Source: Halosolutus halophilus (GTDB lineage Archaea; Halobacteriota; Halobacteria; Halobacteriales; Natrialbaceae). From it: a stretch of 64,000 nt of DNA. Below the pieces are notes generated by a model. That model was given only the letters and a program-made list of their open reading frames with translations, made no database searches and had not been told where the DNA came from. The stretch covers positions 2,480,001 to 2,544,000 of the forward strand of contig NZ_CP094974.1 of assembly GCF_022869805.1 (NCBI RefSeq), read 5' to 3'. A program made the position numbers and the translations under genes. Positions 60,096 to 64,000 of this stretch are shown here, piece after piece. Each line of letters begins with the position of its first letter. Position 1 is the stretch's first letter.

Positions 60096-60731
60096 TTACT
60101 CGGGCAGGTCGTCGATCAGCACGACGGCCTCGCCGTTGATCACCGTCGCGTCGTCGTCCTCGTTGCGGATGACCGTCTCGAGACGGTACTGGTCGTTGCC
60201 GAGGTCCTCGACGATTTCTACGCGTGCGGAGACGCGATCGCCGATGCCGACCGGCCCGCTGAACTCGAGGTCCTGCGAGAGGTAGATCGTGAGTCCGGGG
60301 AGTCGGGCCAGCGCCGCACTGATCAACCCGGAGACGAGCGTCCCGTGGACGATGCGCTCGCCGAAGCGCGTGTCGGCGGCGAACCCCTCGTCGAGGTGGA
60401 GGCGATTCGTGTCGCCGCTGACGTGGGCGAAGGCGCGAACGTCCTCGTCGGAAAGGACCTTCTCGAAGGTCACGGTGTCGCCGACGCTGATCTGATCCGG
60501 ATCGTCGACGGTCCGATCGAACTGCCAGTCGAGACTCGAGTGATCGATCGAGGGAATGGACGCAGGAACGCTGTCGCTGTCCGCACAGTTCGTGTCCTCG
60601 GAGGCGGGGAGCATGGCAGAGACTGCAGCACGGTTCGCAGCCGTCGCACTCTGCAGGAGGGTCCGGGTCATCGCCGTCCACGCGTTCGTCATGGCAGCGA
60701 AGTTACTCCCCCCAGAGTTCTGGTGTGACAT
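60096..60731 (-). CDS. MaoC/(R)-hydratase with phasin-like N-terminal extension
   Basis: 211 residues. The hot-dog domain starts near residue 75. The hydratase motif DTNRLHLDEGFAADTRFGERIVHG contains the catalytic Asp and His of (R)-specific enoyl-CoA hydratases (PhaJ/MaoC), giving (R)-3-hydroxyacyl-CoA, the monomer for PHA. Residues 10-45 (AAMTNAWTAMTRTLLQSATA and following) form an Ala/Thr-rich amphipathic helix not found in plain MaoC proteins. It may bind the PHA granule as phasins do. It diverges from phaRPEC. Confidence 0.85.
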   Translation of the reverse strand: MSHQNSGGSNFAAMTNAWTAMTRTLLQSATAANRAAVSAMLPASEDTNCADSDSVPASIPSIDHSSLDWQFDRTVDDPDQISVGDTVTFEKVLSDEDVRAFAHVSGDTNRLHLDEGFAADTRFGERIVHGTLVSGLISAALARLPGLTIYLSQDLEFSGPVGIGDRVSARVEIVEDLGNDQYRLETVIRNEDDDATVINGEAVVLIDDLPE

Positions 60732-61149
60732 CTACCCGCGCATAAGCGTGTGGGGGTTATGACTTCTTTGGCCGAAGCAATCCACACTTACTGTCCGAAA
60801 TCGGGTATTACTGACTTTCGGATCGAATCTGTGGGGCCGTTCGATCGGTGGGACGGTCGAGATGGATTCGTCGAGCGGTCGAGGTCGTCCCGATTCCGGA
60901 TCGGCCGGTTGCGATCGCGCGCCTACCAGCCCTCGACCTTGATTTCGCCGGCGTGCATCGCTTGTACGTTGCCAGGATAGAGCATTCACTCTCGCGGGCC
61001 CACGGAGATTCCGTCGATCAGCGGCGAATCCCGCCGATCGTCGACGTATACAGCGTCGACGTTATCGTAACGCGCCCCGGCGTGCGATGCCCTCGTGATC
61101 CGGTACGGGGACACTATCCGATACTCCCGGTACAGGACACGCCATCCGA

Positions 61150-61207
61150 TGCTATCTGAACTACCAGATACCACGTACACCATTTCATGGTATCAGATGG
61201 TATCTGA
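61150..61207. promoter_or_regulatory. four copies of a 10-bp operator-like motif
   Basis: TGCTATCTGA (61150-61159), TGGTATCTGG (complement 61164-61173), TGGTATCAGA (61188-61197) and TGGTATCTGA (61198-61207). The last two are tandem and one helical turn apart, nine bases before the TATA box. They are likely binding sites for a regulator of the PHA operon, with the AbrB-type PhaR the first candidate. Confidence 0.75.
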
Positions 61208-61215
61208 GGGCAAGC

Positions 61216-61222
61216 TTTATTA
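61216..61222 (+). promoter_or_regulatory. TATA-like box of phaRPEC
   Basis: TTTATTA lies 24 bases before the phaR ATG (61247), directly after the operator repeats. Confidence 0.65.
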
Positions 61223-61246
61223 CGATCGGGGCCCTCCGTACAGTTG

Positions 61247-61567
61247 ATGACGGACGACTCCGACCGATCGCTCTGGTTCCCGCCTGCGATGTTCACCGAA
61301 CAGATGCAGGAGGCAGGCGAGCAGGTCGCCGAATCCCAGCAGGAGATGATGCGGAAGCTGATGCAGGCGAGTTCCTCGAACCCGTTCGAGAGCACGTCGG
61401 CACTCGGCCCGATGAACATGGGAACGGCGACGTTCAAGGCTCGCGTCCAGAGCGGCGGTCGGATCAGCATTCCCGGCCCGGAACGGGAAGCCCTCGACAT
61501 CGAAGAGGGAGATATCGTCCAGACGATTGTCGTGCCCGTCAAACGCAACCGAGAGGATCAATCATGA
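61247..61567 (+). CDS. phaR: PHA regulator PhaR, AbrB/SpoVT domain
   Basis: 106 residues from ATG 61247 (a TTG just ahead is less likely). An N-terminal helix (FTEQMQEAGEQVAESQQEMM) resembling phasins is followed by an AbrB-type swapped-hairpin DNA-binding domain (VQSGGRISIPGPEREALDIE). In Haloferax mediterranei a protein of this type binds the phaRP promoter and the PHA granule, sensing granule formation. Its stop overlaps the phaP start by four bases. The four upstream motifs are its likely target. Confidence 0.85.
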   Translation: MTDDSDRSLWFPPAMFTEQMQEAGEQVAESQQEMMRKLMQASSSNPFESTSALGPMNMGTATFKARVQSGGRISIPGPEREALDIEEGDIVQTIVVPVKRNREDQS

Positions 61568-62049
61568 CTCAGAACCCTATGACGCAAATCTTCGACGCAC
61601 AGCGCACCGCAGTTGAACAGTCCCAGAACCTCACCCACGACGCTCTCGAGGCCCAGAAGACCTCGATCAGCGCCGTCGCCGACGTCGTTCAGACGTCGGG
61701 CGCGATGTTCGAGTCCAACGCCGAACTCACGAAGGGCGCGATTCACGCCTACTTCGACGCCATGGAAGCCTCGCTCCCCGAAGAGGCAGCCGACTTCGAC
61801 GAGGCCCGTGAACTCGTCGACGAAGGCTTCGACGCCGCCACCGAGGCCCAGTCGCAGTCCCTCGAGGCCGTCGTCGAGGCGATCGAGGAATCCGAAGCCG
61901 CCTACGACGAGTTCGCCGGCAACTACTCAGAAGTCGTCGACTCCTCGTTCGACGCCTTCCTCGAGGCCCACGAGCAGGTCGAGCAGAACGTGACGGCCGT
62001 CGCCGAAAACGTCGAAGAGGCCGCCGACGAGTTCGACGTCTCGGCGTAG
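61564..62049 (+). CDS. phaP: phasin PhaP
   Basis: 161 residues, almost wholly helical and acidic: TQIFDAQRTAVEQSQNLTHD, followed by Ala/Glu-rich repeats. It lacks Cys and Trp. It coats the surface of PHA granules and controls their size and number. ATGA overlap with phaR; 42 bases to phaE. Confidence 0.85.
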   Translation: MTQNPMTQIFDAQRTAVEQSQNLTHDALEAQKTSISAVADVVQTSGAMFESNAELTKGAIHAYFDAMEASLPEEAADFDEARELVDEGFDAATEAQSQSLEAVVEAIEESEAAYDEFAGNYSEVVDSSFDAFLEAHEQVEQNVTAVAENVEEAADEFDVSA

Positions 62050-62091: not shown

Positions 62092-62643
62092 ATGGCAGAC
62101 TCACAGCAGCCCCAGGCGCAGAACTGGAACGCATTCGTCGAACAGTGGAACGAACAGTTCCTCGAGACGCTCGAGGACAACATGGAGGCCCAGGCCCGGT
62201 TCGTCGAGAGCTGGTCGGAAGCCGTCGGCGAGGTCAGCGAGGACACCGAGATTTCGGACGGCGTCGAGGGCTACGCCCGCGCCTACGAGACGTGGATGAA
62301 CGCCTCCCAGCAGATGGTCGAGCGAATGAACGACGCCCTCGAGGGCGAAGACGTCGAGATCGAGGAGTTCCGTGACGTCTGGCTCAACACGGCCAACGAG
62401 GCGTTCAAGGAGATCATGTCGACGACGGCCTTCGCCAAGATGACCGGTGAAACCGTCGGCGACGTCCTCGAACTCCAGCAGCAGGCCGACGAAGCCGCCG
62501 AAGAGACGCTGCACAACCTCGGCTTCGCGACCGAGGGCGACGTCGTGGAGGTCGGCGATCGTCTCGTCGAACTCGAGCGTCGCCAACACGCCGTCGAGCA
62601 AAAACTCGACCGCGTCCTCGAACACATCGAAGACGAGCAATGA
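62092..62643 (+). CDS. phaE: PHA synthase subunit PhaE
   Basis: 183 residues: [20 protein letters not shown], a helical middle, [20 protein letters not shown] (PhaE signature) and a coiled-coil end ([20 protein letters not shown]). It is the non-catalytic subunit of class III synthases, shorter than bacterial PhaE, as usual in haloarchaea. Overlaps phaC by four bases. Confidence 0.9.
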
Positions 62644-64000
62644 ACAACCCATACGCAACCGTTCTGGACATCCAGCGGCAGGCCTGGGAAGGTGCGGCCG
62701 ACCTGGCCGACAAGAGCCGCGTCGCACCCGAGCGAACCGAAACGCTCGAGAACGTCGAGGTCGGCCAGACCCCGAGCGAGGTCGTCTACGAGGAGAACAA
62801 GCTCCGGCTCCTCCACTACGAGCCGATGACCGAGGAGCAACACGACATCCCGATTCTCGTCGTCTACGCGCTGATCAACAAGCCGTACATCCTCGACCTG
62901 CAGCCGGACCGATCGGTCGTCCAGACGCTGCTCGAGGCCGGCTTCGACGTCTACCTGATCGACTGGGGCGAGCCGTCCAAGCTCGATCGATCGCTCACCC
63001 TCGACGACTACGTTACCCGGTACATCGACAACTGCGTCGACGTCGTGCGCGAGCGCTCAGGCCAGGATGCGATCAACGTCCTCGGCTACTGTATGGGCGG
63101 CACCAAGTCGGCCATGTACGCCGCGCTCAACCCCGAGAAGGTCGAGAATCTCGCCCTGATGGCCGCCGGGCTGTGCTTCGCCGGCGACGGCGGCGTCCTC
63201 GAACTCTGGGGGGCCGAGAACTACTACGACCCGGAGAAGGTGACCGAAACCTTCGACAACGTCCCCGCGGAGTTCCTCGACATCGGGTTCGCGCTGATGG
63301 ATCCGATCGCGAACAACCTGACGAAGTACGTCCGCTTCTACGACAACGTGGAGGACGAGGACTTCGTCGAGAACTTCGCCCGGATGGAGCGCTGGCTCGG
63401 CGAGGGGATCGACGTCGCCGGCGCCGCCTACGAGGAGTTCATCGAGGACATCTACCAGGACAACAAGCTGTACGAGAACGAACTCCACCTGAACGGCAAG
63501 CACGTCGACATCACCAACATCGACATGCCCGTCCTCCAGATCGTCGCGGAGTACGACCACCTCATCCCGCCGGAGGCCTCCAAGCCGTTCAACGAGAAGA
63601 TCACCTCCGACGACACCGAGATCATGGAGTTCGCGACGGGTCACATCGGCATGTCCGTCTCCTCGCGGAGCCACGCCGAACTCTGGCCCGACGTCTGTGA
63701 CTGGTTCGAGGCCCGATCGAGCGGGGACGGCGAAACACCGGCGGAGCCACGTGAATCCGACGCCGCGCCGGAGACGTCGGAGCCCAAAACGGCCGACGCA
63801 GCCCTCGCCGAAGACGTCGCGGGCGACGAGAGCGGTGCCGAGGGCCTGACCGACGGCAGCGCGACCGTCGATCGGAAGGCCGACGACCTCCCCGGTGAAG
63901 CGCGGTCCGACGAGGAGATCGCCGAACGCGCGGAAGACGACGTCCAGGAAGCGCCCGCGGAACCGGGCGAGATGGCCGTCGACGAGGCCATCGCCGAGGA
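62640..64000 (+). CDS. phaC: class III PHA synthase PhaC (partial, runs off the end)
   Basis: 453 codons visible from ATG 62640. Alpha/beta-hydrolase with the lipase-like box GYCMGG (catalytic Cys151), Asp306 in AEYDHLIPP and His335 in TGHIGMS. The positions agree closely with bacterial class III enzymes. It polymerises (R)-3-hydroxyacyl-CoA with PhaE on the granule. After the core (about 357) an acidic extension of at least 95 residues follows (Glu/Ala/Asp-rich), as in other haloarchaeal PhaC. The stop lies outside the window. Confidence 0.95.

Follow-up and report, generated by a model that had tools for sequence, protein, structure and literature searches.

A phased repeat array before haloarchaeal phaRPEC operons as the probable operator of PhaR, with candidate copies at dispersed phasin-like genes

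The phaRPEC operon of Halosolutus halophilus is preceded by short repeats that end close to its basal promoter elements, which raises the question of what protein reads them and where else they occur. In the window analysed here, a stretch of 64,000 nucleotides, phaR lies on the plus strand at 61247-61567 and encodes a protein of 106 amino acids with a probable C-terminal AbrB-type domain at about residues 60-100. It is followed on the same strand by the phasin gene phaP (61564-62049; assigned by position and homology, with no Pfam family above the cut-off), by phaE, encoding a class III PHA synthase subunit (62092-62643; PF09712), and by phaC (62640-64000; PF07167 and PF00561), which continues past the window edge. 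The maoC/phaJ gene (60096-60731, minus strand; PF01575) is divergent from phaRPEC, and the grid-score scan described below found no array in its promoter. The TATA box of the operon, CTTTATTA (61215-61222, plus strand; core TTTATTA at 61216-61222), was recognised by its sequence and served as the anchor for promoter alignment; it is preceded by a BRE-like element, GGGCAAG (61208-61214, plus strand).

The array in the window and its conserved grid

The original prediction placed four TGGTATCTGA-like sites upstream of the TATA box, and a motif scan of the window located all four between 61150 and 61207: TGCTATCTGA (61150-61159, plus strand), TGGTATCTGG (61164-61173, minus strand), TGGTATCAGA (61188-61197, plus strand) and TGGTATCTGA (61198-61207, plus strand). 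They make up four of the six matches with at most one mismatch in the 64 kb, and all lie inside 58 bp. The 10-bp phasing proposed for the tandem pair was borne out by the TGGTATCAGA and TGGTATCTGA copies, and 8 bases separate the last copy from TTTATTA. When up to two mismatches were allowed, 29 occurrences were observed in the window against 25.5 expected, which is chance level, so that the evidence resides in the clustering and position of the sites and not in their count.

We collected 110 distinct phaR promoters, based on PhaR homologues of relatives and on named haloarchaeal genomes, and aligned them on the TATA box. ATGGT cores occurred almost only at -19/-18, -29/-28 and -39/-38 from TATA, and ACCAT cores almost only at -17/-16, -27/-26 and -37/-36. 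These offsets imply one centre common to both orientations, and thus a quasi-palindromic 7-mer, ATRSYAT, which appears as ATGGTAT, ATACCAT, ATGGCAT or ATGCCAT and is repeated every 10 bp in either orientation, with unit starts on a rigid grid at -19, -29 and -39. The first slot (-19/-18) carries ATGGT in 77 of the 110 promoters; the second (-29) carries ATGGT in 48 and ACCAT in 13, and the third (-39) ACCAT in 33 and ATGGT in 17. Closer to the TATA box, the BRE region has G at -6 in 95% of the promoters and AA at -4/-3 in 94-99%, and in many of them a TGG-like sequence is kept in the BRE's own grid slot. Three phaR promoters (L105, L106 and L108) have four ATGGTA-like units in tandem, all of the same orientation, an arrangement that comes near to the four tandem repeats described for Haloferax mediterranei.

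A position matrix was built from the phaR-promoter units and used to score three units at a set period. At a period of 10, 75 of 80 named phaR promoters scored at least 20, while none of the 80 did so at periods of 8, 9, 11 or 12, and no match of this score was found in 326.5 kb of flanking DNA. Since the matrix was trained on overlapping phaR promoters its scores favour them, a bias to which the comparison of periods and the lack of background hits are less sensitive. In the window the array obtained a grid score of 36.8, the next best non-overlapping place 10.8, and ten first-order Markov shuffles of the window gave no score of 18 or more. One outcome that the original prediction named as refuting it, a lack of the motif in phaR promoters of other haloarchaea, did not occur: of 80 named promoters, at least 75 have it in phase.

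The alignment also corrected the description of the array. The conserved unit is the 7-bp ATGGTAT/ATRSYAT, which is shorter than the frame first proposed and begins one base before it, and a third on-grid unit was overlooked. The three units that together score 36.8 are unit 1, ATGGTAT (61197-61203, plus strand; slot -19), which is the best conserved, unit 2, ATGGTAT (61187-61193, plus strand; slot -29), which lies 10 bp away, and unit 3, ACACCAT (61177-61183; ATGGTGT on the minus strand; slot -39). The two distal copies of the proposed four-copy array do exist, at 61150 and 61164, but they are off the conserved grid and lineage-specific. In the corrected frame they read ATGCTAT (61149-61155, plus strand) and ATACCAC (61168-61174, minus strand), the latter 9 bp upstream of unit 3 and 1 bp off the grid. 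The 61168 unit is ATACCAT in one congener (G002), where the 61149 unit is not kept, and neither is kept in another (G001); the two proximal units can be made out in each of the three genomes. Upstream of the -49 slot, no family-wide counterpart of the distal pair was found in the 110 promoters. A possible further distal unit, ACGCCAT (61139-61145, minus strand), lies 10 bp from 61149 and belongs to a one-mismatch pair (61139-61155), a match level that is background genome-wide. A reading of the four sites as one palindrome was discarded, as the distal arms are not conserved. An imperfect direct repeat, ACACTATCCGATACT (61111-61125) and ACGCCATCCGATGCT (61139-61153), 28 bp apart, was also noted upstream of the array.

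Candidate sites at dispersed phasin-like genes

The original prediction called for a genome search for further clusters. Within the window the cluster before phaR has no counterpart. Across the whole 5.06-Mb genome there are two exact occurrences of the pair ATRSYAT-N3-ATRSYAT, one before phaR and one at position 1097502, near a distant phasin-like gene. The strict pair ATGGTATNNNATGGTAT at two mismatches and ATRSYAT-N3-ATRSYAT at one mismatch were at control level genome-wide, and the evidence is therefore limited to exact sites. The 1097502 site directly precedes the TATATA of a stand-alone gene (L128:1562-2158; with its array, G000:C1:1097502-1098158, or L128:1501-2158), whose product shares 29% identity with PhaP across 156 residues. 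This gene lies about 200 bp downstream of an ORF (L128:447-1298) that by eye we take to be transposase-like.

Searching the relatives with the L128 protein revealed more PhaP-like genes away from phaRPEC. The resulting set of orphan phasin-like genes, from this genome and its relatives, comprised 16 members, 15 found by homology and L128 by its motif. Arrays were present upstream of 15 of the 16, with scores above 20 in 12 and in degenerate form in three (L208, L212 and L214); L211 was the only one with no array upstream. One of the degenerate arrays precedes the third phasin-like gene of this genome (L214, G000:C1:1403880-1404260; about 320 amino acids) in the same TATA register. Most of the arrays shared the -19 register of phaR, as seen wherever a TATA box could be anchored, those of L128 and L203 being displaced by about one base; the TATA box of L215 was beyond the scanned range. 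At 423 TATA-like control sites the maximum array score was 4.9. The orphan proteins share with PhaP an N-terminal signature (P5, F10, Q13, R14), and their phasin identity is based on 23-34% N-terminal identity. Fourteen relatives that lack phaR gave no phasin-like match, and in the same genomes the exact pair was at control level (3 versus 3).

A scan that started from the motif led to the same kind of gene: the best non-phaR array, four phased units in G026 (L217:1370-1406, G026:C34), precedes a phasin-like gene, and the gene on its other side is presumably, as judged by eye, a trpB-like gene for tryptophan synthase beta. Extension of the regulon by the motif alone is noisy, with 42 exact sites in 61 genomes versus 17 for the reversed control. 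In one genome, three ATRSYAT units spaced at exactly 10 bp (L218:1340-1366, G060:C1:2527839-2527865) have no obvious TATA box in register and lie between two genes that by eye appear to be archease-like and gpmI-like, the latter for phosphoglycerate mutase; this array is possibly a non-phasin target or a chance occurrence. The arrays at the orphan genes predict, from sequence, a regulon of PhaR and phasins.

PhaR as the probable reader and the alternatives

The C-terminal segment of PhaR is near-invariant, FKxRVQSGGRISIPxxEREALDIEEGDIVQ. PhaR matched the AbrB model TIGR01439 with an E-value of 7e-5, which is under the model's cut-off, and a PhaR profile matched the solved protein of unknown function 2glw with an E-value of 5.5e-8 and SpoVT far more weakly (0.7). 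An AlphaFold model of low confidence (pLDDT 64.7, pTM 0.31) has a long N-terminal helix followed by strand 61-66, helix 77-82 and strand 90-95, a beta-alpha-beta order placed as in an AbrB-type domain. The window PhaR matched no Pfam family even at an E-value of 5, and the PHB accumulation regulatory domain of the bacterial PhaR family was not encountered. The published motif of AbrB consists of TGGNA pairs 4-5 bp apart (PMC8552724, PMC11135676, PMC11497800), and positions 61188-61202 read TGGTA-TCAGA-TGGTA, in agreement with a bipartite TGGNA-N4/5-TGGNA site of the AbrB type. PhaR is likely, judging by these sequence features, to be the reader of the array through its AbrB-type C-terminal domain.

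In H. mediterranei, PhaR is reported to bind the phaRP promoter, to be located on granules and to repress phaRP by way of four tandem repeats in this promoter (Cai et al. 2015, as summarised in PMC9049629 and PMC7137286); the promoter activity of phaRP rises about fourfold when phaR is deleted, the repeats being termed a negative cis-element in a review (PMC9049629, PMC7137286), and in cells lacking PHA the activity is lower (PMC7137286). The core idea of the original prediction, that the array is a site of PhaR autoregulation, is therefore known in kind, and it gains support as a prediction of binding from the conserved phased motif and the reported autorepression (PMC9049629). Features expected of a haloarchaeal PhaR operator that are found at this locus are an array directly upstream of phaRP, an AbrB-like PhaR encoded next door, and tandem repeats before BRE and TATA that are conserved in orthologous promoters. 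The repeats are very probably docking sites by which PhaR would switch off its own operon. In the mechanism that we propose, PhaR dimers would bind the ATRSYAT units through the AbrB-type domain, one per helical turn and on one face of the DNA. As the last unit abuts the BRE and the next slot (-9) overlaps it, a filled array should block the loading of TFB/TBP and so keep phaRP repressed. The formation of PHA granules would draw PhaR onto them by titration and open the operon, a step suggested by the granule location that is reported for PhaR and by the lower phaRP activity in cells lacking PHA. The same array before dispersed phasin-like genes would bring these under PhaR control too, whether by repression or by activation. 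We infer the stoichiometry, the BRE occlusion, the titration and the control of trans targets, and occlusion is the best supported mechanism. Taken as a whole, the reading of the array as the PhaR operator of phaRPEC, repressive through a BRE block, titrated by granules and also controlling phasin-like genes, is one that we hold with high confidence.

Could the repeats be functionless? The loose motif, with up to two mismatches, is indeed at chance level in the window; the conservation of the grid in 110 promoters over a zero background already refutes chance, and we give this explanation a negligible probability. That all four sites first described act as one functional unit, with an essential distal inverted pair that serves for example in looping, is suggested by their resemblance to each other and by the 61168 unit in G002. 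The absence of the distal pair from G001, of the same genus, and of any family-wide counterpart beyond the -49 slot makes such a unit improbable.

The position of the array bears on a further alternative. Archaeal activators sit immediately upstream of the BRE, where the array is found, so that it could be an activating element at which PhaR or another factor recruits TFB/TBP; the fourfold rise upon phaR deletion and the negative cis-element reported for H. mediterranei (PMC9049629, PMC7137286) speak against activation, and we regard it as unlikely. Another candidate reader is PspR, the PEP-synthase-like repressor, which might bind the array as its main protein or together with PhaR. PspR is reported to bind a 211-bp phaR promoter fragment of H. 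mediterranei in EMSA and ChIP, but its binding is called weak and it is listed in only 13 haloarchaea (PMC10948481), whereas the array is present in nearly all phaR promoters. The AbrB motif is moreover part of the array, which in genomes that have phaR also marks phasin-like genes, and a main or common role of PspR appears very unlikely. The wider role of PhaR, as regulator of a dispersed haloarchaeal phasin regulon in which one TATA-anchored, orientation-indifferent array of TGGNA half-sites, exactly one turn apart, is the mark of phaRPEC and of orphan phasin-like genes in two to three families, with the AbrB code TGGNA-N5-TGGNA common to a bacterial global and an archaeal granule regulator, we consider reasonably probable.

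Implications and comparison with known systems

The rule of ATRSYAT with a period of 10 and its last unit beginning at -19 from TATA would make a class-wide operator readable from sequence, and would predict which scattered genes encode granule-coat proteins. With it, the titration of PhaR by granules becomes testable at several promoters together, and operators could be designed for PHBV production in haloarchaea. For the question of how DNA is read by AbrB-type proteins, whose Bacillus sites have long looked diffuse, the arrays also offer natural data of unusual clarity. Neither the TATA-anchored grid nor a unit free in its orientation nor phasin-like targets in trans came up in the literature searched, an absence that is no proof of novelty.

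The closest known system is the phaRP promoter of H. mediterranei, which has an orthologous regulator and operon, repeats upstream of phaRP and a reported autorepression by PhaR. The phaR promoters of the H. larsenii group have four phased units, and it is through this group, and not base by base, that the array would correspond to the published cis-element. Bacillus subtilis AbrB resembles PhaR in the sequence and spacing of TGGNA-N5-TGGNA and probably in the beta-alpha-beta type of DNA-binding domain. AbrB, however, acts globally as a transition-state regulator, and its sites are loose and AT-rich; those of PhaR form strict arrays over several turns, at very few promoters, and PhaR differs further in having an N-terminal helical region. 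The bacterial PhaR/PhaP system of the Cupriavidus type likewise has a granule-bound repressor of the phasin gene and of its own gene, but that repressor is of another protein family by Pfam search and acts on another type of operator and promoter.
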